This document shows positions 7,965 to 28,369 of a stretch of 32,500 nt of DNA, one piece after another. The DNA comes from Halichondria panicea (Eukaryota > Porifera > Demospongiae > Suberitida > Halichondriidae). Made by a program: the position numbers and the translations under genes. Below the pieces are notes generated by a model that saw only the letters and a list, made by a program, of their open reading frames with translations, was not told the DNA's origin and ran no database searches. Numbering within the stretch: position 1 is the stretch's first letter; each line of letters starts with the position of its first letter. Where the stretch lies: NCBI RefSeq assembly GCF_963675165.1, contig NC_087387.1, positions 6,230,558 through 6,263,057 of the forward strand. The letters run 5' to 3'.

Positions 7965-7992
7965 TGCCAGGTCAATAGTGCCAGTGTCTAAG
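7965..7992. repeat. Target-site duplication, right copy (28 bp)
   Basis: Exact match to 4577-4604; see the left copy. The interrupted locus would rejoin as ccttcttgagt + 28 bp + gccttccatgg. Confidence 0.85.
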
Positions 7993-8279
7993 GCCTTCCA
8001 TGGTGTGGGTGGTACACAGCAAAAACACTTATGTTATATATGAGATGCATCATCGTATTTTAGTGTTAAAATAACAGACATTTCTACATGAAATTTCAAA
8101 AGATGCATTTCATTTGACATGTTTTATGTGTATATAATTATAGTAAATGAGCCTCTGATGCACATTGGCTATGGAGTGAATGGTGGTCTGGATTCCTCAG
8201 CACACACATTATACCAGGCTATGTGTGTAATTCTAATTACAACTTCGTATACATTTGCAACTTGTTAGATCTTCACTAT

Positions 8280-8660
8280 TTTCGTTGGTGGAAGTACTGC
8301 ATGCGGTTCTTAATAATTATTAACTGACATCTTATTTGGAATCCTCATTAAGATAAATGTACCACATAAAATATATAGCTCGGTCTTCCTCAGACTACAA
8401 TGGAAAAACCCTTATTATAGTGTTGTCAATAGAACTACAGATATGCTACAGTAAGAATACTCAATCAAAAGTAAAGTGAGCTAATTTGATAAACAATCGA
8501 GTATTACTCTTTCTTAATTATTATTGATCAGAGTCACAAAAAGGATAATCGTCTATCATGCAGAAACTGATCTAACTACTTTAATCGATGACATCATCAG
8601 TTTTGCACGGACTGAAAAAATGATTATCAAAAACAGTTTAGCAGTTTGTGGATTTCCCAA
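8280..8660 (+). repeat. Module copy A-left (plus orientation, truncated)
   Basis: The copy begins near tttcgttggtgga and shares ordered blocks with 26288-26640: ggtcttcctcagact, acccttattatagtgtt, agatatgc, then agtttagcagtt. It stops before the transmembrane-exon part that the other copies contain. Together with 9010-9490 it forms a large imperfect palindrome. Confidence 0.6.
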
Positions 8661-8814
8661 AGATGCATGCATGAGCAAACTATAGCCTCCTTTGCAGGCC
8701 CTCCTTTTCTGATCTTTGTCACATTAAGAAGAGGAAAATTGAAGGAACGAAGAAAGAAAGAAGGAAGCGACAAAGAAAAAGGAGATTAACAGTATGTTTC
8801 CAATGCATGATCAG

Positions 8815-8955
8815 TGCTGGGAAGTGGTTCGGCTGTGATCCAGTTGTTACTGGTGGTGTCCAGCATAATCTATTCTGCTGCCGATGATGGATTTGGCAAT
8901 TATGCTCTCAATAGCATTACTGGTGCATTTGATGGATTGGCTCCAAACTGTGAAG
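8815..8955 (+). CDS. Signal-peptide-like exon of a small secreted/membrane protein
   Basis: An open frame reads LGSGSAVIQLLLVVSSIIYS, a hydrophobic stretch like a signal peptide core, then AADDGFGNYALNSITGAFDG and LAPNCE. It ends at a strong donor (GAAG/GTGAGTG at 8955/8956) in phase 1. No ATG is in frame and a TGA lies just upstream, so the start is probably an acceptor AG at 8813-8814 and a preceding start exon is missing or unrecognised. A downstream acceptor (cacacag at 9054) is phase-compatible and yields VVESSSSS, the start of a transmembrane exon that also occurs at 9888-9994 and near 26700. This would give a short protein with signal peptide, acidic/Ser linker and membrane anchor. I do not recognise the family; this copy may be a remnant. 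Confidence 0.4.
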
Positions 8956-9009
8956 GTGAGTGTGTACATACAGATTACAGGGACAAGGCAAACCTTGCAT
9001 TCCTTTAAC

Positions 9010-9018
9010 GAGCTCCAT

Positions 9019-9056
<38 letters not shown>

Positions 9057-9490
9057 GTAGAGTCCTCATCTTCATCATGCACTGATCTTCAATGCTGTCA
9101 TACCTATATTGTGAGTGTGTTGGCTGTTGTACCATGTTATAGCCACCACATGAGTTTTATGACAATTGAACACATGCACTTTTGCAAAACTGATATCACT
9201 GTTACTCTTATTAAGTCATTAAGTAGCTATAGAGGTACGATACGATTTTGATTGTGATCATAAACTATATCGATGAGCTCACCATTATCTTATTATTAGT
9301 TTTTCGATAGTGAATATTTTACTGCTATAATTATAGTCTAGTCTACATCCACTGATAACACTGATAAGGGGTCAGAGTTCTGAGGAAGAGTGAGCTATAT
9401 GTTATATGGATTCCAAATGAGATCTGTAATGTTACTGAGTATAATCAGGTATAATATAAAGCAGAGAAACGAATATAAAGAGTGGCTCCA
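9010..9490 (-). repeat. Module copy A-right (inverted), with a degenerate transmembrane exon
   Basis: Inverted relative to copies B and C. It holds, reading plus, the (CA)n tract, gttgtagagtcctcatcttc, gtgagtgtgttggctgt, and then the reverse complement of the cttcctcag...ttatcagtgga blocks up to ccaccaacga near 9490. Within it an exon from 9055 reads VVESSSSS then CTDLQCCHTYIVSVLAVV. Compared with copy B, a 4-base and a 2-base insertion scramble the middle and then restore frame, so the membrane helix is damaged. Confidence 0.6.
9019..9054 (+). repeat. (CA)n microsatellite at a putative splice acceptor
   Basis: About 17 CA units, ending in cag just before the transmembrane-type exon. The matching copy on the other strand (9996-10048) has (GT)n in the same relative place, so the dinucleotide run is part of the repeated module. 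Confidence 0.95.
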
Positions 9491-9689
9491 CCAACGAATC
9501 AACTCTCAGACCTATTAGGTCAATAGCGTAGTAATGTTGAGCAGGAGCCCAAACCAAGTGCATTACGTAACCGAGAGACCATCCATATATGCATGGGTAT
9601 GGATTTCTCAAAGCTATAGTATATATATTATATTGACGTAAAGGTATGTGAGCCATTTGTGGGTGTGGTCTGGTAATTAGCTAGTCACG

Positions 9690-10048
9690 TACTATAATGA
9701 GCTCGTTGATAGACAATTTAGTCACAAAAATGATATAATTTGTCCATGCAGAAATAACTGCGCTACTTAATCGATGCACAGACTCATAGTTATAATTATA
9801 TAATCTATAATTATTATTATTATAGTTAAATCAATTTAGCAATTCCGGATCCAGTTTATTGGTTTTTTATCTTCAACAGATGAGTAATCACTTTACTGTA
9901 TCCATAAACAGTACAACTAGAGCTAGTACAGCCAACACACTCACAACAGGTAGGACAACATTGAGGATCAGTGATGAAGATGAGGACTCTACAACTGTGT
10001 GTGTGTGTGTGTGTGTGTGCATGTGTGTGCGTGTGTGTGTGTGTGTGT
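9690..10048 (+). repeat. Module copy B
   Basis: Third copy of the module, in the same orientation as copy C, containing ttggttttttatcttcaaca, gatgagtaatcactt, gccaacacactcacaacagg and gatgaagatgaggactctac, then an interrupted (GT)n run to 10048. It carries the best-preserved transmembrane exon (minus strand, 9888-9994). Confidence 0.7.
9888..9994 (-). CDS. Transmembrane exon, intact copy
   Basis: On the minus strand, a cag acceptor just after a CA-repeat tract (plus-strand 9995-9997) opens an exon reading VVESSSSSLILNVV (first V completed from the upstream exon), then LPVVSVLAVLALVVLFMDTV, K, stop at 9888. This is an acidic/Ser juxtamembrane segment followed by about 22 hydrophobic residues, a typical single-pass membrane anchor with a very short tail. 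The phase matches the signal-peptide-like exon at 8815-8955, although that exon lies on the other strand. I cannot find the 5' exons belonging to this copy, so it is either the last exon of an unseen gene or a duplicated gene end. The family is not recognised. Confidence 0.45.
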
Positions 10049-10183
10049 AAGGTAGTGCCTGGTAGTGTGTGCACTGAACTCTGACTGAGGAAGGGAAAAC
10101 GTACCTTTCTAACGGTCATTCCACAAAAGTTTATACCACTGGATCCACGAATATTTTACCCACAAATGAAGCGACCTTGATTA

Positions 10184-10315
10184 TACACTGTAAAAAATGA
10201 AGTGCAGTGGGCACACTAAAATAATTGCATATTATAGTATGAATAATCGTACGCGTGCTCTATTAATATGCGTACATGTACGTGTGCTCACCGCCACTTC
10301 ATTGTTTACAGTGTA
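10184..10315. mobile_element. TA-flanked MITE, 132 bp
   Basis: Terminal repeats tacactgtaaaaaatgaagtg (10184-10204; one mismatch) and cacttcattgtttacagtgt plus a (10295-10315). The pairing continues imperfectly inward for about 12 bases (gggcacac against gtgtgctc). If the terminal TA is the target duplication, the ends are CACTGTA...TACAGTG-like, as in Tc1/mariner-derived MITEs. Non-coding. Confidence 0.75.
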
Positions 10316-10505
10316 CCATTTATACCTGCAGTGCAAGCAAAGTGAGGTAACAGAGATTGCGAGAATCATTATAATTATCTCCTGGCATAATTTATGCTAT
10401 AATTATTATTATTATGATTATAGCTATTTAATATAGTACATGTCGCCGTTATAAAGTTTGTGATGCCAGGTTATTTGCATGTGTGACTCGTCTTAATTAA
10501 TTACA

Positions 10506-10997
10506 GAGTGGTGCTGGAATGCAGTGGCACCACAGCGATACAGAGTGGTGCATGCTGGCATGCAGTGGCACCACAGCGATACAGAGTGGTGGTGGAATGC
10601 AGTGGCACCACAGCGATACAGAGTGGTGGTGGCATGCAGTGGCACCACAGCGATACAGAGTGGTGCATGCTGGCATGCAGTGGCACCACACCGATACAGA
10701 GTGGTGCTGGCATGCAGTGGCACCACAGCGATACAGAGTGGTGCATGCTGGCATGCAGTGGCACCACAGCGATACAGAGTGGTGCATGCTGGAATGCAGT
10801 GGCACCACAGCGATACAGAGTGGTGCTGGAATGCAGTGGCACCACAGCGATACAGAGTAGTGCATACTGGCATGCAGTGGCACCACAGCGATACAGAGTG
10901 GTGCATGCTGGAATGCAGTGGCACCACAGCGATACAGAGTGGTGCATGCTGGCATGCAGTGGCACCACAGCGATACAGAGTGGTGCTGGAATGCAGG
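10506..10997. repeat. VNTR, about 12 copies of a 37/41-bp unit
   Basis: The unit contains gtggtgctggaatgcagtgg and caccacagcgatacaga; a longer variant carries gtggtgcatgctgg at its start. Copies are nearly identical (one ccgatac variant near 10691, one gtagtgcatac variant near 10856). Each unit has inverted segments (gtggtgc ... gcaccac) that can form a hairpin. Because 37 and 41 are not multiples of three and the unit lacks stops, long ORFs appear in five or more frames; none is a gene. The high identity implies recent expansion. Confidence 0.95.
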
Positions 10998-11024
10998 CTG
11001 AAAACTATCCTAAACAACACAGGC

Positions 11025-11320
11025 ACAACAAACAGCACCATGCATGCATGCACCACATATTGAAATCACTGTAAGTTGAAACAGTAACTGATATTCTTAA
11101 GAAACTATAGATATCCAATTAGCAGTAAATTAGGTTTGTTTTCATCCCTCATTCCAAACAGCACCATGGATGTACCCTGCTCTGTGAACGTGCATGCACA
11201 CTGGTAATTGATACTCAGAGAATCAATGTAACTGAGACTATTAACAGGAAATTGTAAATTGAGTTTGTTTCATCCTAATTACAAACAGCACCATAGCAAC
11301 ATGTAAGCCACTGCATGTTG
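11025..11320. repeat. Three-copy tandem repeat, period about 127 bp
   Basis: The blocks start with aaacagcaccat at about 11030, 11156 and 11283, each followed by gcatgc-type sequence, an attgatact/actgatatt segment and gtaaattaggtttgtttcat-like sequence. Identity between copies is moderate. Non-coding. Confidence 0.7.
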
Positions 11321-12267
11321 ATTGATACTTCTGAGGTCTACGTTGTTCATAGTTTAAACTGCATGAGGAGAATAATACAGTTATTTTGGAGCATCGTTTT
11401 AATACTCGCCAGCTGGGAGGGAGACCTGTGAGAAAATATCATTGAATATAATAATTATATAATATAGCGGGTATAATTTTCGTTGCAAATTTTCAGTTCT
11501 TACAGCTCAGGCGTTGAACCTATTGTGGTATTAAATTTCATATGATGCTCTACAATACAAAATGATTATACGAAAATTTCCACGATACGAAAATAACTCG
11601 CTATATACGGTGGTACGGTGTAGCACACACAAATCTACTTAATACAGGCTCAATTATTGAGCTACTTGCAATTGTGCAGCAGTATAGTCTATAAGTGCAT
11701 TGATAAGTGGTTAATGGTTGGAGTGTGAGGAGCAGAGTGAAATAAATAAGGGGTGGAGCTGCAAACATCAGCTCTGCCCTCAGTAAAACTTATTTAGGTT
11801 GCAACCCCACCCCTAGATCCGCCCCTGTCAAATGTAGACATTTGTTGTATTTATTTGTACAATCTGTCAAGACAGTGTCATTAATTAATATCAAGCTCTG
11901 GTCTGCTATATAGTTTCTTGGAGACTGGCCTCTTCATTGGAGGTATGACTGCATGCATGCATGCTATAGTGCAAATGCATGGATAGAATATTATTATCGT
12001 TATATATATAGTGCCTGTATGCATGCAGCAGTCATGGATGATAATCTAGCTTATTAATGTTATGTATATTAACTATTATAGTACCGGAACATACATGTTT
12101 GGGGTGAGCGTGCACAATTTTAGAACTTCATATAATGTCATGCATGCAGATATAGGTGGGTTGGTAGATTATCAATATGCCTGTCGCTCTCGCAGTCTCA
12201 CTCCTTCAGACTAGAGCCTTATTTTCTTGTGTGCTATTTATTGTTATCACTATAATAATTATAAAGA
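11321..12267. other. Non-coding stretch with repeat fragments
   Basis: No supported gene. A fragment at 11560-11612 (cgaaaatttccacgatacga) recurs in diverged form at 27005-27052. A sequence ending ccctagatccgcccctgtc near 11828 has the look of a transposon terminus, but no partner end was found. The rest is AT-rich with gcatgcatgc strings. Confidence 0.45.
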
Positions 12268-12407
12268 CACTGTTTTGAAGGTGTCTGGTATTTAGAAGCC
12301 CAAAGGTACTGATTTAGTAATCCCGAGCATAATTATAGCGAGGGTATTAAACACTATTTACTACAAGTGTCCGAGGCTTCTAAATCACATAGACCGCCAA
12401 AACAGTG
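12268..12407. mobile_element. MITE-like element, 140 bp
   Basis: The left end cactgttttgaaggtgtc... ttagaagcc and the right end ggcttctaaatcacatagac ... aaaacagtg are imperfect inverted repeats of about 33 bp. The left end also occurs alone at 20664-20706 inside an intron of the NLR locus (cactgtttttgaggtgtcta ... agaagcccaaaggca), so it belongs to a dispersed family. No clear target duplication. Confidence 0.65.
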
Positions 12408-13760
12408 AGCCTTGCCTCGTCTCGAGGCTTGACATGCAATACAACAAGTTACTTTGCTTGACAACAGGATAGCTGCTGTATAATTATATGCTAATGTGTG
12501 AAAGTATTGTATATATTATATAATCATCTAAGTACCGTGACTAAGAACTCAGTCTGCACTATATCTTTGTAATAATGGGTATGAGAAAAAGCCAACGGTT
12601 TCTGGCTAGTTAAGGTTTGGAACTTTGTTACAACATCTATATAAATAGATTGGCTATCTTATGAAACGTTTGATATTGCTTAAATATCTACACATCCTCC
12701 GCAGTGCTCAAAATTGCTAGTTTTTAGTGCCGTTTCGGTTAGGGAGAGATTTGAAGAAGATCTTACGGCTAAAGTCCAAAAATTACACTGAGTCATAACT
12801 TTTGATGAGAAAATGTGTCCAGAAATATTTCAGAGATAATTGATGTCACAAAATTTTTTACGATAACCCCCATTTCACCCCACTATACAACAACTTTTGG
12901 GGAATACTTCGAATAATGTTGTAGCTTATTCGTTCACCTATATATATACACAATGGTATAAGCACAATTTCTTAGAAATGTTCCAATCTTGGCTCTGATA
13001 CAACTATACTCACCTATATTGTGGTATTCTATATACTCTCTAGATTGGATGCACTGTAATCCTCTACACTATAGTAGCTGCATTGCAGTGGAATTCCTGA
13101 CAACATTCAATTTGCTTTACACAATTATTGGTACTATATCCATGACTGCATGCCGGCAAAGGCATTATCAGTTATATAATTATGCATGCAGATTGCACTA
13201 TAATATTGGTGTGTGCAGGGCACAAACATTTAATTACGATTGCATACTGCAGCTATAATATTGACTAACTGGGTGGAGGTGCTATATTGACCGTGACTGG
13301 AGTGACTGAACTTGTATCAGTTATCAACCAATTAAGGATTAAATGATCAATTAGATCATACTATGGGTCAAACACAGTCTCTTCGTAACACTGGGTAAGC
13401 ATGACTGAGTATAGCTGTATACAAATATGCAAGTTCAGCATTAAAATGCCCTACCATCATGTCCATGAAGCATGACAAGATTGCAGAGGATTTTACCGAT
13501 GTGTCAACATACGTTGCATGGTAGATTGTTGCACTGTCCAGAATGTAATCACTATAATTATACCACAGGATTGGAGAATGTCTAATTTTATTATGAGATG
13601 AGATTTTTATATCAATTGTTATCAAGGAACAAGCGTGCATTTATTACACTATCACGTGCCGTGAGACATCATAAAGGTCCTCGTAGTATAATAATTAACC
13701 TGAGCCTACGCCGCGGTTTACTGCTCACTCACAACTTCGCTACCATCTTTGGTGGTCGTG
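12408..13760. other. Non-coding stretch upstream of the NLR
   Basis: Short ORFs here (for example 12989-13258 plus and 13640-13368 minus) have no recognisable protein features and low-complexity AT-rich composition, so I leave them out. The missing 5' exons of the NLR could lie here, but I could not find a CARD- or DEATH-like exon by eye. Confidence 0.4.
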
Positions 13761-13763
13761 GTT

Positions 13764-13911
13764 TGGCGCTTATAATTATTATAGAGTGCTGCTTATAGAA
13801 CGTGGAGTAGCTGTTTCCACGAGGCTATAGCTATCATATAAATTGTACATTTATATATTATATAGCCTATAAATTAAAGACCGCATTATAATAATTATTA
13901 CCTAAGCGCCA
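13764..13911. repeat. Imperfect inverted repeat, possible MITE
   Basis: ggcgcttataattattata near 13764 pairs with tataataattattacc...aagcgcc ending near 13911, apart from a three-base insertion. AT-rich and non-coding. It sits about 170 bp before the first NLR exon that I can define. Confidence 0.5.
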
Positions 13912-14083
13912 GCTATAATAGTAGAGTATAATTGTTGTGGACTATTGGCGCTTCTATTAGAGTGGCACTGTAATTAAGAAAGACGGGGCTCACCTCACAC
14001 AATGCTTTCAACTTACACTAGCTTGTAATTATTACCTCTAAAGGCTGCTTTTTATCATGTGCATGCATGCATGTCATGAACAG

Positions 14084-15461
14084 GTTTGTAACTAGTCTCA
14101 AAGAAAAGTACATTCAGAGAGAGTTTGGAGAAGATGAAGAATGGCCACCATCAGATAGAAGAGACAAACAAAGAAGACTTATCAAATTGCAATTAGTCGA
14201 GACTGATCAGATAGAGGGGTTTGGCCACAAGGGTCGTTCAAGTGGCATCGAGACTGATCAGATAGAGGGGTTTGGCCACAAGGGTCGTTCGAGTGGCAAT
14301 GGCAAGCAACCTAAAGATGACAAAGAAACACGCAAATCAATACTCCACACTGACCTGTTCAAGACTAGCAGTGACAACAAACCAGTCAGGAAGATTGTTG
14401 TGAAAGGCAATGCTGGGATTGGTAAAACCACACTGTGTACCATGCTGACTGAGGCGTGGGCAAAAGGTAAGATCCTGAAACAATTTGACTGTGTTCTGTT
14501 GCTACCACTGAGAAATAGCAACGTGTCATCGGCCACAAGCCTCCCTGAGCTGATTAAACTTTTCCATCTGAGTGAGAAGGTCCGCAAACCTCCAACAAAA
14601 AGGATGGAGGATAGAGAAGGAGAAGGCGTCCTCATTATAGCTGATGGCTGGGACGAACTCAGTGAGGGTGCTCGAGCTAAGGACTCGTTTCTCTACAAAC
14701 TTCTTCTTGGTTATGGTTGTTCCAAAGCCTCTGTTCTCCTCACATCCAGACATTCTGCAGCAGCACCTTTTCACAAACTGTCTTCAGTGGACACTTTCAT
14801 CGAGGTGGTGGGTTTTGATGAAGAAGATATCAAACAGTACATAGTTGAGGAATTCAAGCAAGATCCAGAGAAAGCTTCTTCTCTTATGGAGCAGCTTAAA
14901 AGCAATCCACTCATTCAGAGTTTGTGCTCTGTGCCACTTAATTGTGCGATTGTTTGTGACCTGTGGTACGATTTACAGCAAACACTTCCAAGCACAATCA
15001 CGAAACTATATGCTAGGATAACACTGTCTGTCGTGCTTCGTGACATCAAGAAGAAATGTCCACAACTCTGTGTAAACTCGCTTGACAATTTCAATTGTAT
15101 TCCCAAGGAACTTCAAAACGATTTCTGGCTGGTTTGCAAATTTGCTTTTGAATTTTTGGCTAAAGATCAAATAGTCTTCTCAGACAGTGAAGTTTCATCG
15201 TTTTCTCAAGATGGGAACTTTAACAAGAAAGCATTTTTCTTCGGTTTATTGCAATCAGCACATTCACATTTCCCTAGCCAACAAAACTCATTGACAACAG
15301 GTTATGGCTTGTCGTTTCACTTCGCTCATTTGACCATTCAGGAGTTTTTAGCTGCCCTTCATATCGTCACTTTATCTCAGAAAGAGAAAACAAAGATTTG
15401 CAACACTTATGCTGGAAACGATCGGTTTAATATGGTTTGGAGATTTGTGTTCGGTCTTTAG
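14084..15461 (+). CDS. NLR-type NACHT NTPase exon, ending at an in-frame stop
   Basis: Central part of a NOD-like receptor, a cytosolic STAND NTPase that oligomerises on ligand sensing. The exon probably begins at an acceptor (atgaacag/GTTTG) at 14084; an ATG at 14067 reads in the same frame. The start has LKEKYIQREFG and EEWPP, a segment usual just before NACHT, then a 17-residue tandem duplication (ETDQIEGFGHKGRSSG twice). NACHT motifs: GNAGIGKTTL (Walker A, about residue 113 counted from 14067), LIIADGWDEL (Walker B), VLLTSRHS (sensor 1), VVGFDEEDIKQYI, NPLIQSLCSVPL and a C-terminal LSFHFAHLTIQEFLAALHI block. A TAG at 15459-15461 interrupts, but the frame stays open beyond it to 15749, so the stop looks like a nonsense mutation and not the true end. 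N-terminal effector exons are not found. Confidence 0.88.
14198..14299 (+). repeat. 51-bp tandem duplication in frame
   Basis: Two adjacent 51-base copies differ at only a few bases and encode ETDQIEGFGHKGRSSG twice. The length is a multiple of three, so the NACHT frame is kept. It lies in the linker before the nucleotide-binding fold, where length changes are likely tolerated. Confidence 0.9.
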
Positions 15462-18400
15462 TCTAAAGAAGAGAAATATAGTAATAAAGCTGTCTCTTTA
15501 GGTGATGTGTTAGTTGATCAGGTTTTATTTGCACTACGGGACAAAGATATTTTACTATACCACTGCTCGTTTGAATCTCAGGATAAAGTTGTACACTATA
15601 AAGTGGCCAACAGAATTTGTGCCAAGTTTAGTTCTTGGTATGGATCAATCAGAAGTCCCCAAACTGCTCACGACAGTGTAGCTCTTTTGCACACTTTTAA
15701 CCATTATATCACATTGTTCGGTCAAGCTAAACTTTTCAGGGAGTCTTAATGAGGAACAGCTTCAGAAACTAGCTACTATCCTCATTGACAGAAAGTTGCA
15801 AGTAAAAGAATTAAGTCTCAATAACTGCAAGCTCACAAATGAATGTCTCACGACCTTCTTCAACAAGGCATCAGCTTCATTTCAGCATCTCGAGGAACTA
15901 TCTCTAGATGGGAACCTTATCACAGGTATACCATTTTCACCCAGCAATAACACATTAACTAGGCTTTCATTATCCAAGAATCCACTCTGGCAAAGTGGCG
16001 CCCAGTTACTAGAGAGTGTTGTACGCGCAGGTTCACTAGTAAAACTTGAACGTCTGTGTCTATCTAGCTAGTGCACTGACAAATGACAGAGACATTATCG
16101 ATGCCAAAGTGTTAGCCACACTTCTTCAAGCATTAGCTACACACTGTCCTCATCTGGATGACCTTGATCTCTCTAAGAACAATATTGGTGTACCTGGAGC
16201 TAGTGCAATAGGAGAGGCCTTTGTACAATAGGAAGGAGTTAAAGCTGAACTTAAGTGAGACTAATCTCGACAGTGAAGCAGCGACAGTATTTTCTGACAA
16301 AGTTTTGGCTTCTTTAGGGAATGTGTCAAATCCACTCTCTTGTGAAATCAATTTGCGTGTTGATAACAATCCACTTGGACACAGCGGCTTGTCAGCCATC
16401 TTTAGAATACTCTCTAATAAAAACTGTCCAGTAACAAGACTTGATCTGGACCACACACATGCAGTCAACCAGGGCCTAATAAAGGCAATCTCTTTTGGTG
16501 AAATTGAATTTCCTGGTAAATGTAGCAAATTGAAAAGGCTAACATTTCAAAACAACGAATCAAGCGGGGACACTCACATAGCTTGCTTGACAATGGCTAT
16601 TAAGGCCAACATTTTTGGTAATCTTAAGAGGATGCAACTATCAAATACCCTCCCTGACAATGTTGAGGAGAATGGAAGACTACTGACTGAACTCTTATCA
16701 TCCATTGCCTCTCACTGTCCTAATCTGAATGACATTGATCTCTCTGAGAACAATCTTGGTGTACCTGGAGCTAGTGCAATAGGAGAGGCCTTTGTAAGAC
16801 TTGCTGCCAATAGGAAGAAGTTGGAGCTGAACTTAAGTGAGACCAATCTCGACAGCGAAGCAGCAAAAACATTATCTGACAAAGTGTTAGCTTCTTTAGA
16901 GGATGTTTCAAACCTTCTCTCTTGTGAAATTGAGTTGAGTATTGATAACAATCCACTTGGACACAGCGGCTTGTCAGCCATCTTTAGAATGCTCTCTAAT
17001 GAAAACTGTCCAGTAACAGAAATTGATCTGAACCATACACATGCAGTCAACCAGGGCCTAATAACGGCAACCGATTTTGGTGAAATTGAAACTCCAACAT
17101 TTCGTGGTCGATGTAGCAAATTGAAAAGGTTGTATTTTCGAAACAACAAACCAAGCGGGGACACTCATGTAGCTTGCTTGACAATGGCTATTAAAGCCAA
17201 CATTTTCGGTAATCTTGAATGGTTGCAACTATCAAATGCCCTCCCTGACAATGTTGAGGAGAATGGAAGACTACTGACTGAACTCTTACCATCCATTGCC
17301 TCTCACTGTCCTAATCTGAATGACCTTGATCTCTCTGAGAACAATCTTGGTGTACCTGGAGCTAGTGCAATAGGAGAGGCCTTTGTAAGACTTGCTACCA
17401 ATAGGAAGAAGTTGGAGGTGAACTTAAGTAAGACTAATCTCGAGAGTGAAGCAGCGACAGTATTTTCTGACAAAGTTTTGTCTTCTTTAGGGATTGTGTC
17501 AAATCCACTCTCTTGTGAAATCAATTTGCGTATTGATAACAATCCACTTGGACACGGCGGCTTGTTAGCCATCTTTAGAATGCTCTCTAATGAAAACTGT
17601 CCAGTAACAAGACTTCATCTGGACCACACACATGCAGTCAACCAGGGCTTAATAACGGCAACCGATTTTAAAACTCTAATATTTCCTGGTCAATGTAGCA
17701 AATTGAAAAGGTTATCATTTCAAAACAACAAACCAAGCGGAAACACTCATGTAGCTTGCTTGACAATGGTTATTAAAGCCAACATTTTTGGTAATCTTGA
17801 ATGGTTGCAACTATCAAATACTCTCCCTGACAATGTTGAGGAGAATGGAAAACTACTGACTGAACTCTTACCATCCATTGCCTCTCACTGTCCTCATCTG
17901 AATGACATTGATCTCTCTGAGAACAATCTTGGTGTACCTGGAGCTAGTGCAATAGGAGAGGCCTTTGTAAGACTTGCTACTAATAGGACGGAGTTAAAAC
18001 TGAACTTAAGGAAGACTAGTCTCGACAGCGAAGCAGTGAAAGCATTTTCTGATAATGTTTTGGCTTCTTTAGGGAATATGTCAAATCCACTCTCTTGTGA
18101 AATCAATTTGCGTATTGATAACAACCCACTTGGACACAGCGGCTTGTCAGCCATCTTTTGAATGCTCTCTAATGAAAACTATCCAGTAACAAGACTTGAT
18201 CTGGACCACACACATGCAGTCAACCAAGGCCTAATAACGACAACCGATTTTGATGAAATTGAAAATCAAACATTTCCTGGTCAATGTAACAAATTGAAAA
18301 GGCTATCATTTCGAAACAACAAACAAAGCGGGGACACTCATGTAGCTTGCTTGACAATGGCTATTAAATCCAACATTTTCGGTAATCTTGAGAGGATGCA

Positions 18401-19202
18401 ATTATCAAATACCCTCCCTGACAATGTTGAGGAGAATGGAAGACTACTGACTGAACTCTTACCATCCATTGCCTCTCACTGTCCTAATCTGAATGACCTT
18501 GATCTCTCTGAGAACAATCTCAGTGTACCTGGAGCTAGTGCAATAGGAGAGGCCTTTGTAAGACTTGCTACTAATAGGAAGGAGTTGGAGCTGAACTTAA
18601 GTAAGACTAATCTTGACGGTGAAGCAGCAAAAACATTATCTGACAAAGTGTTGGTTTCTTTAGAAGATGTTTCAAACCTTCTCTCCTGTGAAATCAATTT
18701 GAGTATTGATAACAATCCACTTGGACACAGCGGTTTGTCAGCCATCTTTAGAATGCTCTCTAATGAAAACTGTCCAGTAACAAGACTTCATCTGGAATCA
18801 ACTATTCACACTTCCATTACTGACCTCAGTTTGAATAATTCTTTAGAATCTCTTAACAGCACTACAGTAAGTCTCGGTCTTCGTCGAAATTTGCTTCATG
18901 GCAAGAACATATTCATACTAGCTGATTGTATTCAGTGCTGCCTGTCACTGGAGAAGCTGGATTGTGATAAGTGTCGAATTACTTCAAACGATATATTTAC
19001 ATTATTGTCACACCTAAAATTCCACGATATTCAACTAAAGTGTTTAAAACGGTGGGACCTTCAAGACAACAGCATCGATGATGACGCAGTGAATACTCTT
19101 ATTACGTATTTGCCTTCAGTGTTTCCATGCATTGAGGATATTGATCTAGATGATAATCTCGTGAGTACAGAGACAGTGAAGAAACTTGATGAGTTTTTGA
19201 AG
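15462..19202 (+). pseudogene. NLR leucine-rich repeat region, broken by several lesions
   Basis: Continues the NACHT exon. After 15462 the frame is open to 15749 (NACHT-associated region), then shifts near 15715 into SGSLNEEQLQKLATILIDR and the first LRRs (VKELSLNNCKLTNECL, LEELSLDGNLITG). A 4-bp duplication (ctagctag, 16064-16071) and an 11-bp deletion between 16225 and 16226 shift the frame again. From 16221 the frame is open to 18158, where AGA has become TGA (18159-18161), and beyond that to 19202. The LRRs are the 28-residue ribonuclease-inhibitor type (LNDLDLSENNLGVPGASAIG) arranged in super-repeats of about 195 residues. The final LRR ends LDEFLK at a strong donor AAG/GTAAGG (19202/19203, phase 0), joining the tail exons; read-through instead ends at 19271. 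The LRR part would be the ligand-sensing arm. Confidence 0.85.
16205..18790 (+). repeat. LRR super-repeat, units alternating 582 and 591 bp
   Basis: The landmark gcaataggagaggcc occurs at 16205, 16776, 17367, 17949 and 18540. Spacings are 571 (582 minus the 11-bp deletion), 591, 582 and 591. Units of 591 bp carry three extra residues (EIETPTF or EIENQTF where the short units have EIEFPG or TLIFPG). Each unit holds about seven 28-residue LRRs. The alternation suggests that a two-unit block was duplicated. Confidence 0.92.
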
Positions 19203-19369
19203 GTAAGGCCACAGCAAGTGTATTGTATGAAAAGGATGCATCAAGTTTTGAGCAAGACATCATTATTATAGCACCGAGTCCTTTTAATGTTTGGTATAAC
19301 GTACACTACACATATAATTGGCACTCTAGATGATAGTTTATGCAATGTAAGGTGGGTTGCGTACTTAAT

Positions 19370-19484
19370 TTGTGAAGCTTCGCCACTACTTCAGAAAATG
19401 TTGACGAAATAAGTTGTTATTTTTGTTGTTATAAAAACTTATAACGAAGCTTTGCGAAATTGTGATTGTGCCGAAGCTTCACAA
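19370..19484. mobile_element. Small inverted-repeat element in an NLR intron
   Basis: ttgtgaagcttcg (19370-19382) and cgaagcttcacaa (19472-19484) are exact complements. The interior also contains acttataacgaagctttgcg. It lies in the intron after the LRR donor at 19203. No clear target duplication. Confidence 0.65.
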
Positions 19485-19658
19485 CTTTTTTTTACCAAGG
19501 CAAGATACTACTTAGTGTGAGGCTCATCCCTATACCCTTCAGTCAGAGCTCCTGAACATTCTAGCTATACATTGATCCTGCATGCATGCACACACTTTCA
19601 TCACACTGAGATGGCTGGGTTACTATAACTATATAATTATATAATTATGTAATAATAG

Positions 19659-20106
19659 GAGAGAAACACGACTGAAGATGAGGAGTTTGATTCCACTAGT
19701 TCTGAATCAACAACACCTGATGATGCGAGTGACTCTCTGCCAGAGGTAAGTACTTACATTGTCTGAGTGTATGACCTGCTGTATCATGCATGATGTTAAT
19801 TCTTGTTATGAACAACGATGATTGCCATTTGCATGTGTCAATTTTCATTCAATTGTACTGTCATACCCTTTTTGATCTGAAAGTTGTAAAATGCATGCGT
19901 TCACTGATGCATGGATGTAATAATTATACATGTCTCCTTGCAATCACAGCACACTAGTACTGATTCTATTAGTGAGGATACGGACTTTAAAGCTACTGAT
20001 GAAGATCTGAATGCACTAAAGGAGGATAGGTCCCCTACAGCTAGTCAGGATTCCACAGCTGCTACTGATATTTCCAATTTAACCAGCCAAAAACAACAGC
20101 TACAAA
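19659..20106 (+). CDS. NLR tail: two small exons of an acidic Ser/Thr-rich linker
   Basis: Exon 19659-19745 (acceptor aatag, donor GAG/GTAAGT, 29 codons, phase 0 to 0) reads ERNTTEDEEFDSTSSESTTP and on to DDASDSLPE. Exon 19950-20106 (acceptor atcacag, donor CAAA/GTAAGC, ending in phase 1) reads HTSTDSISEDTDFKATDEDL and on to QDSTAATDISNLTSQKQQLQ. The phases fit the LRR donor before and the next exon after. The composition (D, E, S, T) indicates a disordered acidic linker between the LRRs and the DEATH region, with many possible phosphorylation sites. The coordinates include the intron 19746-19949. I see no known domain. Confidence 0.65.
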
Positions 20107-20213
20107 GTAAGCAGTTTGCATGTTGTTATATATAATGTAGTTGAATCATTGTTTTAAAAATAATTACGTCCTATTTATGCATGCAGCAGACTCGTTATCT
20201 TTTCCTTCGCAAG

Positions 20214-20474
20214 GTTTGCCTATTGAAACAGTAAAGAGAGACGCTGAAGTCACTAACGAGCAGCTTGACACAACAGTAGAAGAAACACACCTCTCTGAAA
20301 TGTCGTCACAATCTGACAGCATCCATAACGACTATCTTATGGAGCAAGGCCTCTCATCTGGACAACAATGTGACGTGAGGAGTCATGCATTCGTACCCGG
20401 CACTCAGGCTGCTGATCATGATGTCATGAACGCTCCTGAGGTGTCTCACACACTAAAAGAAGTACCTAATAACA
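20214..20474 (+). CDS. NLR tail: decayed or partial DEATH-like exon
   Basis: The acceptor is ttttccttcgcaag at 20213 (an earlier one at 20186 keeps the same frame); the donor is ACA/GTAGGT at 20474/20475, phase 1 in and out. It reads GLPIETVKRDAEVTNEQLDT then TVEETHLSEMS and LMEQGLSSGQQCDV. This parallels the next exon (LTIEALKRETNITDEQLDT, RVEELDLPKLS, VEILGLSPGQQTDV). After that point the match stops and the sequence becomes unrelated (RSHAFVPGTQAADHD), so only the first half of a DEATH-like fold is represented. It looks like a duplicated exon that lost its second half, leaving a spacer. Splicing phases keep it compatible with the rest of the gene. Confidence 0.6.
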
Positions 20475-20663
20475 GTAGGTTGATACTCAAAGCATATTAG
20501 TTAATGCTATTTTGCATCATCATCAAAAAAATAATTGTGTGCTCCACAAACATTACAAGGCAGCTGCTTATTAATTATCCTGGAAACTTTTCTGGGCAAT
20601 TTTCATTATTCTATATAATACAGCAGACACTCTGCATGGTGCTTTAATTTTACTAGTTAGACA

Positions 20664-20706
20664 CTGTTTTTGAGGTGTCTATATGAGATTTATAGAAGCC
20701 CAAAGG
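20664..20706. mobile_element. Solo end of the 12268-12407 MITE family, in an intron
   Basis: cactgtttttgaggtgtcta and then agaagcccaaaggca match the left end of the 12268-12407 element. No second end was found nearby, so this is a fragment in the intron between the two DEATH-like exons. Confidence 0.55.
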
Positions 20707-20749
20707 CACACGTGTGATGTTAATTATTGGCTCGCTGTCCTATTATCAG

Positions 20750-21096
20750 GCCTGACCATTGAAGCACTAAAGAGAGAAACTAATATCACTGACGAGCAGC
20801 TTGACACAAGAGTAGAAGAATTAGACCTTCCCAAATTATCTTCATATTTCGACAACACTAATGACTATGTTGAAATACTGGGGCTCTCACCTGGACAGCA
20901 AACTGATGTCATTGAAGAGAAGGCTAGAACAGCATTGAATCGAACACATGCTGGAATAAAGCTGGCTCTGAAATATTGGCTGAATAGAGTTCTTTCAGAG
21001 GGTACCTTCAGAGCTCTGCTACTCATCCTAATCTCCCTGGACAAAGGAGACGTTGCTATCAAGGTGGCACAGTATTTGTCAGCCAAAGGTGCGTGA
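20750..21096 (+). CDS. NLR tail: C-terminal DEATH-like domain exon
   Basis: Acceptor tattatcag at 20749, phase 1, open for about 115 codons to TGA at 21094-21096. Motifs along the six-helix DEATH fold: LDLPKLSSYFDNTNDYVEIL (helices 1-2), GLSPGQQTDVIEEKA (helices 2-3), LALKYWLNRVL (helix 4, with the conserved Trp) and TFRALLLILISLDKGDVAIK followed by VAQYL (helices 5-6). This domain recruits other DEATH proteins by like-with-like contact and would pass the NLR signal to caspases or kinases. In most animal NLRs a DEATH, CARD or PYD lies before NACHT; here it is last. Phases agree through four junctions back to the LRR exon. It could instead be a separate short adaptor gene whose start I miss, but no ATG or promoter supports that. 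A donor-like AAAG/GTGCGT at the end leaves room for another exon. Confidence 0.75.
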
Positions 21097-21470
21097 GTGG
21101 GTACATTATGCATGTTAATTACCTTATTGTCTATTATAAACAGTGAACCTCACTATTCCAGACCCCTTTTAACCTCGCAAATCCGGACAAAAATAGCAAA
21201 CTGAAAAAGAGGAGGGGCTGTCAGTAGAATAGAGTACTGCGCATGGCGCAATGTAAATTGCTTAGCTGAATCAGCAATAATTTTATTGCTAAGAAACGAA
21301 GAGAGAGCTCACAAGACTCACTGTATTGGAGAGAAAGTTGAGATAAAGACTATTCTAGCTAGCAGCTTCACTTCTGGCCACAGTGATATCAATACATGTA
21401 CAAAAGTGTCTTCGTTAATGATATTCATAATCAATTATAATGACATCTGTTAATCCGGAAATTTCATGTA
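21097..21470. other. Non-coding stretch after the NLR
   Basis: No gene seen. The string gaacctcactattccagacc near 21145 resembles pogo-type transposon termini (compare 21471 and 22342-22369), so an older element may be nested around the 21471-22318 one. Confidence 0.4.
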
Positions 21471-22318
21471 CAGTAGACTCTCGTTAATCCGGTCACCCTT
21501 GGGACCATGCAGCTTGGCCGGGCTGCAGCTCAGGAAATAGCCGCGGCTTAAAAATGACCTTACCTCGAATCTAATGACTACTTTTGTGGTTCTTGTCTCG
21601 AGGATAATGTAGGATAATGAATCATTCTGTTCTCTATTTAAGTGTAATCCAATTTTATCTGTTAAACCGCACCCAAAACGTCATATCCGGCCGTAATATG
21701 TGACAGGCTCTGGGAAAACCAGACTATTGGAGCAGAATTTAGTATTGAGCTACAGCTAAATTTATGCCTACAGTATAAAATCTCAAATAAAATAAATGTT
21801 ATTGGTGTATAAGTATCTATAGTCCTTCTACTACCTCTCTGTAAAATCTGATGCTCTAAATCCAAATCTTTCCATCAAAACGCTTTGTCCAAACTTTCGC
21901 TATCACCTTATTTTTCCTAATTGAGCAATCTTTGAGAGGCGTTTTTCTCGATACTACATTTACGGCTTCGAGTTTCTAATGCGCATAACTCGGGTATATG
22001 TATATGTATATGTATATGTGAACACTAAGCATATCATTGTGTAGGCGATGCTCTGCTCTATCATTTGGTATATTAATCACCAAAATTTTAGCCTGCTCCA
22101 ATAGTCTGGTTTTCCCAGAGCCTGTCACAATATACGTATAAATGAAAACCTTGTTTGGGACAGCCAGCACTGGCCGGTAAACGGAATAGCGAGTGGCCGT
22201 ACTTCAGGGTGAGTTTTGTGCAGTAAACATAATTATAGCTAGCATTCCGTGCCAAGCCAAATGGCCGGTATATCGAGGTGGCCGTACTTCAGAGAGCCGG
22301 AATAGCGAGAGTCTACTG
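21471..22318. mobile_element. Pogo/Tc1-mariner-like non-autonomous element, 848 bp
   Basis: The left end cagtagactctcgttaatcc (21471 on) and the right end aatagcgagagtctactg (to 22318) are inverted with two mismatches over 22 bases. Each end is directly flanked by TA (21469-21470 and 22319-22320), the target duplication of this superfamily. A further outward-facing end at about 22342-22369 (ggattagcgaggttctactg) suggests nested insertion. No transposase is present. Internal tandem pieces gtggccgtacttcag occur near 22193 and 22278, and an internal inverted repeat is listed separately. Confidence 0.75.
21698..22135. repeat. Internal inverted repeat encoding a P-loop-like string
   Basis: gtgacaggctctgggaaaac plus cagactattggagcag (about 21700-21737) is repeated as the reverse complement at about 22098-22134. 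On the minus strand the right arm reads VTGSGKTRLLEQAKILVINI, containing GSGKT as in Walker A motifs of helicases and other NTPases. The surrounding frame (22170-21976, minus) runs into a (tatatg)n repeat and has no other NTPase motif. Confidence 0.7.
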
Positions 22319-22320
22319 TA

Positions 22321-23047
22321 TTCGGATGGGGTCTGGTCCCGCTCTATTCGGATTAGCGAGGTTCTACTGTACTAATTTTAGCGAATTTTAGCGAATTTGT
22401 AATTCAACGCTAAATTAAGTACGCGCTGATAATAACGCAATTATGAATCTCATAAAAAAAAATGTTTTCTTCTTTTTTTTCTAATTGTAATGTACTTTTG
22501 AGAGTATGTTAGCCCTTTTTTTACATCTGTATCTGACTTCAACTTTCCTAAAACTCATACTTGTACATCTTTTGAGATATTATTGTGGTAATGAATTTGC
22601 CAAATCCGCCAAAATTAGTATCCTAAAAACAGAGAAAAATCTGAAAACGCTAAAATTACTACCCGTCTATATAATAGTAACATTAAGGTATACTATTTAG
22701 AACACACCGCCAAGATTAAGTATTTTAATGTATGTGAGCATACAACTTATAAAGCATGCACACCTTCAGTGTGGATTAAGAAGCATGTATTGGTCAGGTG
22801 ACTATATACTTTTAGATATTAAGCTGATTGGCTGAAGATCATGTGATTAGCACTAGTTTTAGTGCTATATATAATAATTATAGTTATACATCACTTGCAT
22901 GCCATGCAGGTACAAAAACATTAGACTAAGTAACTCTAGAGCACTAAAGTGCAGAACCTTCGGCGTTAGTTTGGGTTGTATAACGCTTCATAATCAAATA
23001 GCAGCTCAGAGCTCACGGTTTTCTGCCGAGATAAATATAAACACTGT
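22321..23047. other. Non-coding AT-rich stretch
   Basis: No gene supported. A short direct repeat gcgaattttagcgaatttgt lies near 22381. The remainder is AT-rich. Confidence 0.4.
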
Positions 23048-23484
23048 ATGACATTATACATGCAGATTGCTGTACTATACACTCCCTTGTAACACAGAGA
23101 GTCCCCCTGTATGACATTATACATGCAGATTGCTGTACTACACTCCCTTGTAACACAGAGAGTCCCCCTGTATGACATTATACATGCAGATTGCTGTACT
23201 ACACTCCCTTGTAACACAGAGAGTCCCCCTGTATATGACATTATACATGCAGATTGCTGTACTATACACTCCCTTGTAACACAGAGAGTCCCCCTGTATG
23301 ACATTATACATGCAGATTGCTGTACTACACTCCCTTGTAACACAGAGAGTCCCCCTGTATGACATTATACATGCAGATTGCTGTACTACACTCCCTTGTA
23401 ACACAGAGAGTCCCCCTGTATATGACATTATACATGCAGACTGCTGTACTATACACTCCCTTGTAACACAGAGAGTCCCCCTGT
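23048..23484. repeat. Tandem array, 7 copies of 61/63 bp in a 187-bp higher-order unit
   Basis: The monomer starts atgacattatacatgcagat and includes gctgtactacactcccttgt and aacacagagagtccccctgt. Copies start at 23048, 23111, 23172, 23235, 23298, 23359 and 23422 (spacings 63, 61, 63, 63, 61, 63). The long/short variants (actatacact against actacact, and an extra ta before atgac) repeat every three monomers, giving a 187-bp unit. Open frames on both strands are by-products. Confidence 0.95.
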
Positions 23485-24252
23485 ATGTACATTATGTGTT
23501 ATTTTCACCCTTGATACAGGTACTATATAGATGTTATAAAGTCAATAGCTATATATAGTGCATGCATGTGAACATTATTCAATTATAGCTAGTTGTAGAG
23601 TAGTTATTATTTCGTTTTTTGAGAGACAAATACTTGATGTGTGGTAACTGATAATTTAGTTTTTCATAGATCATTAACCTTTTATTGTACATATACACAT
23701 ATCAGGCTGTTTGTTTCCTACATCAAGAATTCTGTATTATAATCATGTTACTCACATCCTGTATAATTATCAGTCTCATTTGTTATAATCAGATGTACGT
23801 ACTAGTTGATCAAAAAATCCACACAGATTCTGACACACATACACACACACAATGATGTTTTTGCACTAATTTTATGTCTTTGAAATGAACTCTCTCCTTC
23901 ATTCTCCTGCAGAGTAGTAGTAAAAGTAATACGTATATAGTGTGCGAATTTGACCTTATTAATTAATGTCACCAATTGGTTTGGGTGGTCTAGACCACTT
24001 AGCTGTGGCCCATGGCCAGACCAACAGTTGTACAGCTATAAATTATGCAACAAACTAACAATAATCGTATATATAGGTACTGCGTTGATCGATTGTTAAT
24101 GGTATAATTATAATAGTGATTTCTCTAAAACAACCTTTGAAAAGCAGAAATATGCATTGAATGCTTCGTGTCCTTTATGGTTAGAAAATACAATAACGCA
24201 GCAACCACTCTGCAATTCCATGGAATTCACTATAAACTGATACTATATATAC
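23485..24252. other. Non-coding stretch
   Basis: No ORF, exon or repeat that I can support. AT-rich with scattered gcatgc and a short (ca)n near 23840. Confidence 0.4.
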
Positions 24253-24432
24253 AGTGTTGCAGTTCACAGCTATACTTGCTGCTCGGGCACTAAGAACACA
24301 AATACATTCACCAGAAGATCTACCCTCGAGAGATGCCACGAGGAATTTTGAGCCCCATGTCACAGTTGGAGGCACTTGTTTAACAATATGATTATAAATG
24401 GCTATACTTTGCTTGAAGAATATTAAGATCCG
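24253..24432 (-). pseudogene. IgGFc-binding-type N-terminal domain exon, isolated fragment
   Basis: Read on the minus strand from a possible acceptor (gtttag at 24433-24438), the frame gives IYNHIVKQVPPTVTWGSKFL, then VASLEGRSSGECICVLSARA and ASIAVNCNT, ending near a GTATAT donor at 24252. The pattern V-x-Q-V-P-P-T-x-T-W-G-S-K-F-L, then G-R-x-S-G-E and V-L-x-A-x-x-x-x-V-x-x-N-C, is characteristic of the IgGFc-binding N-terminal domain found in large extracellular, mucin-like or receptor proteins. Other exons of such a gene are not found within several kilobases on either side, so this is probably a stranded exon or pseudogene piece. The start CNH/NHI replaces the usual C-D-H, another hint of decay. 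Confidence 0.5.
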
Positions 24433-24986
24433 CTAAACACAGACGTTTCCATTATAAGTATATCCTCAATCGCTGTCTGATTAGCAGTTAAAGCAGTATA
24501 GTGTCTAGTTCGCTTAAACAGCAAATGTGTTGTGTCCACGCACACGCACACACATCAATCACTCTACCCCTATTGCACACTGCACACGCACGAGGTATAT
24601 AATAAGGTGTCTTGAAGTGTGAAAACCTCCAAGGAATCACTCACATTTTCAATTGGCGAGGAATGTGTAAAAATAGTGCACTTTTGATGTCACGGTAGAA
24701 TTTGTTGAATGGTAGCACGTATTATAGACAGTCTTTAATCAAGAGATTCATTGTAAGCTCTGTGTCTGCCAGTGACTTCATGATCAGTGGGCGTAGATAA
24801 AGTGAGTATCCTCAACAGCTGCACACATAGTACCTCCAATGAGGGTCCTCCGTAGGTACATAACTACCCATGCAAAGGAAGGCGTCCCAAGAGCCACATA
24901 TATGTGATGCTGCAAAGTATAGGTTACATGTGAGGCATGCATGTGTGAGTTTGTCTCCAGAGGAGGTCCGACTGCCAGGCTGGTGC
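24433..24986. other. Non-coding stretch upstream of the IgGFc-type exon
   Basis: Overlapping minus-strand ORFs at 24784-24997 exist but show no domain and share no features with the IgGFc family; I leave them unassigned. A short cacacgcacacaca tract lies near 24540. Confidence 0.35.
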
Positions 24987-25108
24987 AGCTCAAGCAATTA
25001 CCGGTAGGTAGCCTCTGATTTCACCAGATTAATGATCACACTCAGCAATAACACACATGCAACGTGGGCGAATAATTAGTATTCACTCAAAGGCTAATTG
25101 CTTGAGCT
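24987..25108. repeat. Short inverted-repeat element
   Basis: agctcaagcaatta (24987-25000) and taattgcttgagct (25095-25108) are exact complements, 122 bp end to end. This fits a tiny MITE or foldback remnant. Confidence 0.5.
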
Positions 25109-25946
25109 ACATTGTCCTGTGGTACTCCCTCTGGTGTGTCTCTATAAGTGTAGAAGTGTGTGTGAGTGGATGTGGTGTGTGAATGCAGTACACATTCAGT
25201 GTAATTACCTGGTTGAGTTATTTTACCCTCTGGGGACTTTAAATGATCAACATCCCGGAATACCCTTGGAATGTTTTTCTACTCATTGTAACCATACTCA
25301 AACTCGGACATTTTTTGGTTAAAATTAATGTCAAGTAATGCTCATTGTATACAGGCAGTGAAATAATGCACCTATCAATGCAAACCATACCCCCTCCCGG
25401 GATAGGGTGGGGATTTGTATTAACTTTGCCTCCCCTGTGTGCATGGGTGGGGATTTTGTAAGTCTGCACACTCAGCAGCCACAATTAAGTCAGTATAATT
25501 ATTATAATTTTAACTCTTTTATAACCTCCCATGGCATGTGTAGCTTTTTGGAAGGAACAAATAGCAAGACTTAATATAGAAAACTTGATTGCCTGGATGT
25601 GACTGTGATTTCATTGGACGGAGTGGAAGCAAAACCACAGACTTTTAATGCCTTGTATACCTCAAGTGTGCTTGCTGTTACAATAGTGAGTATTTGTGCT
25701 CCTGTGTACAGTCTATTGGAGTTGCGTACTCTTCCTAATGAACTCTTGCTATAACTGACATGCATACATCATGTCATGTAAGTTCAAAATAATGTGAACA
25801 TGTACAATTATACAATCGAACATGCATGATGGAGTTTTATAAGTGTGTAAAGGAATGGATGAGATCGATATGTATACTGATCTGAATTGATCACCAACTA
25901 AGTACATCATTATCCTTATAATTATTATAGTTAAATGTGCAATGAC
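25109..25946. other. Non-coding stretch
   Basis: No supported gene. Direct repetition of ggtggggattttgta/ggtggggatttgtatt at about 25405 and 25445 is the only structure noticed. Confidence 0.35.
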
Positions 25947-26201
25947 CAGTGGCGTAGGCAGAGGGGGGCTGACGGGGCTAGAGCCCTCCCTTTTGTGCTT
26001 TATTTATTCCAACTCAGCCGCGATCTGTCGATGTATTCTGCACTGTATACTGCATGCATAGTTACTAGAATGATGTCGGAAATGTGGGCAGGGCCATCTA
26101 ATGCGCATGCTGACTGCTTAGGACCTTTTTTTAGTGTTATGCTCTGGCCCTGCTCAACTGATTTGAGCCCTGCCCTTCCCCAAATCCTTGCTACGCCACT
26201 G
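25947..26201. mobile_element. Non-autonomous DNA element with CAGTGGCGTA ends, 255 bp
   Basis: The left end cagtggcgtaggcag (25947 on) and the right end cttgctacgccactg (to 26201) are inverted. CAGTGGCGTAGC-type termini are common among animal non-autonomous DNA transposons. The interior is G/C-richer than the surroundings and non-coding. Target duplication not clear. Confidence 0.7.
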
Positions 26202-26287
26202 ATTACTACATATTAAAACACTCGGCTACGTGTGTTCTAACTAAAACTCTGTACAGTTTGAGATCTTGATCTATAGGAGTACGTCAC

Positions 26288-26882
26288 TGTTTCGTTGGTG
26301 GAGCCACTGTGGTTTCTTATAGCCCTCCAATAATTATGATATCTCTGGATAAAGTAATGTACCACATAAATCGCTTGGTCTTCCCTAGACTATATACAGT
26401 GAAAGATGAACCCTTATTATAGTGTTATCAGTGGACGTGGACAAGACATATTAGAACTAGATATGCAACAAGTGTTTTATCTCAATAATTATATAAAGTG
26501 AGCTCTCATTGATACAATTGAACAATGAGCACAAAAATAAATAACTCAACTGCTTAATTAATAATAAGAATGAAATGACATTTTCAGTTTTGCACCAATA
26601 ATTATTATCATGACTATGTTAATATCAGTTCAGCAGTTCCAGTTTGTTGGTTTTTTAACTTCAACAGATGAGTAACCACTTGAATGTATCCGTAGAGAGC
26701 CCCACCCAGGACAACTACAGCTATATAGTACAGCCAACACACTCACAACAGGACTTGGTAGGACAACATTGAGGACTAGTGATGAAGATGAGGACTCTAC
26801 AACTGTGTGTACATGGAGAAAAAACAAATGGACTATTAGTTTTGTATCAATGTTTTTGCTCGTTAAAGGAATGCAAGGTTTA
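26288..26882 (+). repeat. Module copy C, with a damaged transmembrane exon on the minus strand
   Basis: Fullest copy of the module seen at 8280-10048. It runs from ttcgttggtggagc through ggtcttccctagact, acccttattatagtgtt, gttggttttttaacttcaac, gccaacacactcacaacagg and gatgaagatgaggactctac to gttaaaggaatgcaaggtt (whose complement is at 8990-9009). The minus-strand exon from 26802 reads VESSSSSLVLNVVLPSPVVS then VLAVLYSCSCPGWG. Relative to copy B it has six extra bases (adding SP) and a 4-base tata insertion that shifts the frame and destroys the membrane helix. Confidence 0.7.
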
Positions 26883-27083
26883 TACCTTACTAGAATGTGT
26901 TGCGGATAAAAAACCTTTGCGATGAGCCAAATCAGCAGAAAAATTGACGTTCTTGAAAATTGAAGATAGTGACTATTGCAATTTCAATTTTCGTATAATG
27001 CTATATACGAAAATTCCCACCATACGGAAATAACCCACTATATTCGGTACTTAACCAAGATCGTATCACTGTTCATATTGTAA

Positions 27084-27215
27084 AGATATCAGCTAACAGA
27101 TGAGGAAGGGTTTCACCAAGAGCTAAGCTGCAAACTCAGAACATTCATAACAAAGTTGGCCACCATTCCCAAACTCCCTCCCTCTGTGAAGGATCTGGAA
27201 GAAGAGATATTATGA
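27084..27215 (+). other. Short exon-like ORF of unknown family
   Basis: A frame with protein-like composition reads LTDEEGFHQELSCKLRTFIT then KLATIPKLPPSVKDLEEEIL and stops at TGA (27213-27215). A possible acceptor AG lies just before it at 27091-27092. It has an amphipathic, charged helical look. I do not recognise it and find no neighbouring exons; it may be a stranded gene fragment. Confidence 0.3.
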
Positions 27216-28365: not shown

Positions 28366-28369
28366 CAGT

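Follow-up and report, generated by a model that had tools for sequence, protein, structure and literature searches.

Can a NOD-like receptor (NLR) carry its DEATH-like signaling module behind its sensor arm, at the far end from the NACHT domain? This question is raised by a locus within a 32,500-nucleotide stretch of genomic DNA (contig NC_087387.1; hereafter the window, in whose positions all coordinates are given), for which an original prediction, made from the sequence alone, proposed one gene with the order NACHT, leucine-rich repeats (LRRs), linker and DEATH. We find that codon scores and splice phases favor, above the other readings, a single gene holding NACHT, LRRs, linker and DEATH-like modules, and we give this a probability of about one half. 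In full, it describes a decayed animal NLR gene, probably from a sponge, whose transcription unit would run from NACHT through LRRs and an acidic linker to half a DEATH-like module and then a complete one, with further exons possibly behind it.

The predicted NACHT exon was confirmed by Pfam, which detects a NACHT domain in 14022-15458 (E = 2e-21). Among solved structures, this stretch is closest to NLRP3 (E = 2.9e-16) and next to other NLRPs, indicating that the NACHT is of animal type; NCBIfam and PADLOC gave weak matches only. Together with the helical region that follows it, which matches NLRC4_HD2 weakly, the exon occupies 14084-15461 on the forward strand (as do all stranded features of the locus described below) and runs to an in-frame stop at 15459-15461. 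Its start may be an acceptor at 14083 or an ATG at 14076, both of which are possible, and past the stop the same frame continues over 15462-15746 without a domain above the Pfam cutoff. Just before the NACHT, within the coding stretch, a near-perfect (98%) tandem duplication of 51 bp at 14197-14298 adds 17 residues in frame.

Behind the NACHT lies a long LRR region, as predicted, in which Pfam places LRR_6 above its cutoff in 16212-18158 (E = 3.5e-10) and LRR matches under the cutoff in 15682-16068 and 18162-19268. It is not one open exon, however, but is broken by stops and frame changes. The first LRRs form a coding segment in a different frame at 15724-16068 (LRR_6 E = 0.00028, below cutoff), and a further coding segment at 16067-16222, in the third frame, resembles the LRR blocks that follow (16100-16228 matches these sister blocks at 62-65% identity by tblastn). 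The main LRR stretch, 16233-19202, keeps a single frame up to a splice donor at 19203, with coding segments at 16233-18152 and 18165-19202 and an in-frame stop at 18159-18161. Block comparison resolved a tandem array of LRR blocks at 16245-18812, four of them complete and one partial; the unit, of 582-591 bp or 194-197 residues, is repeated approximately 4.4 times, and the blocks differ by in-frame gaps. Across ten pairwise comparisons, nonsynonymous divergence (dN) was 0.08-0.14 and synonymous divergence (dS) 0.09-0.40, with ratios of 0.35-1.01; the repetition suggests that the sensor arm recently underwent unequal crossing-over. With an animal-type NACHT and LRRs C-terminal to it on the same strand, though across frame breaks, the locus is an NLR of the animal kind.

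The tail was examined as a splice chain with corrected coordinates: the LRR exon ends at 19202 and is followed by exons at 19659-19745, 19950-20106, 20187-20474 and 20750-21096, with junction phases 0, 0, 1 and 1 and an open frame throughout. Exon 2 (29 residues, phase 0-0) and exon 3 (52 residues, phase 0-1) are acidic and Ser/Thr-rich and together make a linker of 81 residues. The third tail exon (D1; 288 nt, phase 1-1) consists of a DEATH-like first half and an unrelated second half, and the last (D2) holds a full DEATH-like module. In 500 dinucleotide shuffles of 19203-20186, any chain arose in 66 and a two-exon chain in 8; two matched the donor sum of the observed two-exon chain and only one matched its coding length as well, the thresholds being taken from the observed chain itself. 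The four small exons and their phases thus stand as predicted, whereas the splice sites, described as good, are uneven: the four donors score 8, 8, 7 and 6 of 9, where 17 of 1953 forward-strand GT sites reach at least 8.

Codon scores trained on the window's own NACHT and LRR pieces indicate that these exons are coding-like. Of 1682 open noncoding segments, 2 reach the 0.43 bits per codon of exon 2, and of 358, none reaches the 0.30 of exon 3 (segments that overlap and are not independent). D1 and D2 score 0.25 and 0.21 bits per codon, lengths for which comparable open noncoding segments are absent; the scores of the two D2 halves are reached by 17 and 5 of 272 segments, respectively. In sum, the tail has an open frame of 879 nt whose codons are coding-like and whose phases agree with the LRR exon.

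The identity of the tail module is suggested by sequence resemblance. D1 and D2 are 54.5% identical across 55 residues and 71.6% across 155 bp (dN 0.31, dS 0.62, from few sites). As D1 retains only the first half of the module, the tail holds about 1.5 DEATH-like modules, a half copy that the original prediction did not report. Its DEATH call was checked against Pfam, where two of four versions of the D2 region match Death (20782-21084, E = 0.14; 20752-21093, E = 0.16) over profile positions 33-85 of 86, at 12.5-12.7 bits and below the curated cutoff of 22.6. The family had been named beforehand, and none of nine reversed or shuffled controls matched it. D1 has no Pfam match, D2 belongs to no family in NCBIfam or PADLOC, and sequence searches of the PDB with the tail module were empty. 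AlphaFold2 models were all-helical and too poor to inform, with a mean predicted local distance difference test score (pLDDT) of 49.8 for D2 with the D1 row and 49.3 for trimmed D2 alone. Foldseek searches of the PDB with these poor models gave 16 and 34 matches at E ≤ 10 and none at E ≤ 0.001; we attributed to chance both the top match, Bcl-xL (E = 3.9), and the CARD filament that ranked 20th (E = 7.3). We therefore describe D2 as DEATH-like, a suggestive sequence resemblance, and not as a member of Death.

We next asked whether the LRR exon is joined to this tail. The proposed intron, 19203-19658, has a donor of 8/9, and the coding segment in the LRR frame stops at 19202, at that donor. Read-through of 19203-19268 scores -0.15 bits per codon and is noncoding-like: values that low occur in 16 of 715 held-out coding segments and in 797 of 2513 open noncoding segments. 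That the coding signal stops at the donor favors the join over an end at 19271. Furthermore, exon 2 is preceded by an in-frame stop and neither exon 2 nor exon 3 contains an in-frame ATG; translation must therefore reach them from an exon further upstream. Neither AATAAA nor ATTAAA occurs within 19201-20954, so a gene ending at 19271 would have no canonical signal. Codon scores and phases together thus back the one-gene order, from which we infer the join.

Several observations weigh against it. The acceptor at 19659 is weak, with 7/15 pyrimidines, and the donor at 20475 reaches only 6/9. Because 18813-19202 was part of the codon training set, the sharpness of the LRR coding end is slightly favored. 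Exons beginning with ATG at 19340-19351 (four codons, donor 8/9) and 19287-19346 (donor 7/9), both phase 0, could feed exon 2 equally, so the same tail fits a separate gene as well; a phase-0 ATG exon with an 8/9 donor is present in 21 of 1000 shuffles, an 8/9 donor within the final 100 nt of that frame of the LRRs in 62 of 1000, and phase agreement by itself is a one-in-three event. A gap of 388 nt is normal between two sponge genes, given that intergenic distances in Amphimedon have a median of 587 bp and introns an average of 327 bp (PMC4432959), and the gap size is compatible with both intron and intergenic space. As for the module, the 20674-21093 and 20791-21075 versions give no Death match (the former at E ≤ 5), one shuffled control matches another family at E = 0.18, and tRNA_bind_2 outscores Death on D2 (E = 0.0052-0.052, with E = 0.0067 on the same stretch). 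We rejected tRNA_bind_2 as a chance match, since it spans about 43 of 233 profile positions, and E-values near 0.1 are therefore not to be over-read here. Finally, searches of viral and prokaryotic collections, whose misses say little about sponges, turned up no homologue for any of the parts.

These points lead to the alternative that survives best, although we regard it as somewhat unlikely: two neighboring genes on the same strand. Here, a decayed NACHT-LRR gene of the NLRX type, with no known N-terminal domain, would end at 19271, and a separate DEATH-like gene would start in 19272-19658, or at an ATG at 20177 that lies in the D1 frame just before D1, and encode 1.5 modules with probably more exons downstream. 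Besides the candidate first exons above and the compact spacing of sponge genes (PMC4432959), this arrangement would suit the good phase-1 donor after D2 and the Amphimedon proteins described as often beginning with one to three Death-like domains (PMC8195603). It is countered by the read-through to 19271, which is not coding-like, by the missing canonical poly(A) signal, and by the three forward frames of 21000-30001, in which no recognizable domain was found (no Pfam match at E ≤ 1). A Pfam scan of the three forward frames of 7700-14100 found no Death upstream of the NACHT, a search of low power given that D2 itself is barely detectable. Within the window, D1 and D2 have no relatives elsewhere; one opposite-strand match of 25 residues (E = 0.57) was attributed to chance.

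The NACHT-LRR part, whose lesions the original prediction lacked, does not retain an intact reading frame. In addition to the two in-frame stops at 15459-15461 and 18159-18161, the reading frame shifts near 15.7, 16.07 and 16.23 kb, giving five lesions across approximately 5.1 kb, with coding signal persisting on either side. We considered whether these stops and frame changes are spliced out and rejected this, as the four surrounding stretches contain no donor of at least 7/9 and two of 6/9. Given coding signal on both sides and the lack of donors of at least 7/9, we take the NACHT-LRR copy to be a probable pseudogene, barring assembly errors behind all five lesions; the copy at this locus is probably not functional.

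Such decay also admits a rearranged locus, in which duplication or transposition put DEATH-like exons beside a dead NLR and no functional product of this order ever existed. The five lesions, the recent tandem LRR blocks, the inverted-repeat elements that lie within the proposed intron and immediately beyond the tail, and the N-terminal position described for DEATH relative to NACHT in Dysidea avara (PMC12909245) are all in keeping with this account, which we nevertheless consider improbable in view of the open, coding-like tail and its phases. The openness of the tail does not by itself decide against it, as a stretch of 0.88 kb without a lesion is unremarkable given the lesion rate of the NACHT-LRR part. 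That the tail module is some helical domain and not a death fold, a possibility which overlaps with all of these readings and stands outside their sum, is similarly improbable: the sub-cutoff Death score, the higher tRNA_bind_2 score and the lack of any PDB sequence or fold match speak for it, while Death was predicted beforehand, matches in two of four versions and is absent from all nine controls.

Returning to the one-gene reading, we asked whether the protein would end at D2. The exon may close at the stop codon at 21094-21096 or at an 8/9 donor at 21089, five bases ahead of it; when the 44-nt stretch examined was shuffled 1000 times, 33 shuffles contained such a donor. Cut at 21089, D2 is 339 nt long with phase 1-1, like D1. 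A good phase-1 donor at this point makes DEATH as the very C-terminus doubtful, so the predicted C-terminal DEATH keeps its place behind the LRRs in the favored reading and may lose that at the very end. The DEATH-like module may be internal rather than C-terminal, and 21096 is not necessarily the end of the protein. Downstream of D2, a coding-like open stretch on the forward strand at 21265-21411 (14.1 bits, without a Pfam match) is a candidate exon, and the first AATAAA lies at 21786.

If intact relatives of the one-gene form exist, their mechanism can be sketched. The LRR arm would sense ligand and thereby free the NACHT, which would bind ATP and oligomerize. The linker, with its roughly 80 acidic, Ser/Thr-rich residues, would be flexible and might let the clustered DEATH-like tails seed the assembly of adaptors or caspases, by analogy with the C-terminal CARD of NLRP1. 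A bolder proposal, which we hold to be doubtful, is that sponges possess an NLR lineage in which DEATH modules sit in tandem after the LRRs, on an acidic, flexible linker and with no FIIND; its tail signaling would have arisen independently, in convergence with that of NLRP1, and the order would have been assembled by shuffling of symmetric phase-1 DEATH exons.

The surroundings of the locus contain repeats and other genes. The proposed joining intron holds a small inverted-repeat element of 121 bp at 19367-19487, identified by inverted-repeat search, and a larger element without assigned strand at 21469-22372 carries nested terminal inverted repeats (arms 21469-21492/22297-22320 and 21468-21491/22349-22372). 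On the reverse strand, the edge of the window truncates a protein kinase gene at 1-965, in which 1-714 matches Pkinase (E = 2.1e-30); beside this piece, 744-1049 has no Pfam match at E ≤ 0.01 and by eye resembles a kinase glycine loop. Also on the reverse strand, 4765-7867 contains reverse-transcriptase open reading frames, with RVT_1 at 5406-5936 (E = 0.00016, below cutoff) and long frames to 7696. It is bounded at both ends, 4765-4795 and 7837-7867, by arrays that are identical and repeat the 12-base unit CCAGACATCAAA, and it looks Penelope-like. Minisatellites lie at 10502-10996 (41-bp unit) and 23044-23495 (61-bp unit), and 2021-3047 contains additional tandem repeats of roughly 150 bp. 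A scan of Rfam at gathering thresholds returned no matches, and no tRNAs were found.

How does the locus compare with known systems? Pattern searches of viral contigs (with the NACHT, D2, the D1/D2 alignment and one LRR block) and of prokaryotic genome contigs (with the D1/D2 alignment and the NACHT) produced matches, none of which was confirmed. Among the titles and abstract openings searched, with subscription literature mostly outside that scope, we found no description of a NACHT-LRR-DEATH order in sponges. The sponge NLRX and NLRD proteins of Dysidea avara and Amphimedon queenslandica are like the locus in placing LRRs after NACHT and in using death-domain modules with NLRs. Their DEATH, however, is described as preceding NACHT (PMC12909245), with an N-terminal DEATH in 25 of 126 Dysidea avara NLRs (PMC12909245), whereas the only DEATH-like exons found at the locus follow the LRRs, in a broken copy. 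The Amphimedon Death-like/TRADD-N proteins have tandem Death-like copies, as the locus does, but carry one to three Death copies N-terminally, followed by TRADD-N (PMC8195603), for which the forward frames of 21000-30001 offer no counterpart at E ≤ 1. PIDD1 (LRR-ZU5-ZU5-UPA-DD) differs in having no NACHT and in its ZU5 and UPA domains. FIIND, ZU5 and UPA gave no Pfam match in the pieces scanned, which exclude the two linker exons (81 residues), by eye too short and acidic for them.

The original prediction had taken it that animal NLRs carry their death-fold module before NACHT. This is not a rule, as NLRP1 signals through a C-terminal CARD (PMC7483925, PMC11508797), and fish NLRPs with FIIND-CARD are also mentioned (PMC11508797). 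A death-fold-like part behind the sensor is thus an unusual layout, not an unprecedented one. Should the locus prove a classless pseudogene or two genes, it offers only a caution on inferring domain order from genomic DNA. Should intact relatives share its order, sponges would have evolved NLR signaling from behind the sensor arm apart from vertebrate NLRP1, and it would become testable whether the choice between activation by oligomerization and by tail release follows from where the death fold sits. NLRP1 (PYD-NACHT-LRR-FIIND-CARD) is in this respect like the locus, with a death-fold module behind the LRRs that in NLRP1 does signal (PMC7483925); it differs in that its module is a CARD and not a DEATH, and in that the CARD acts as the signaling module by way of FIIND autoproteolysis (PMC7483925).

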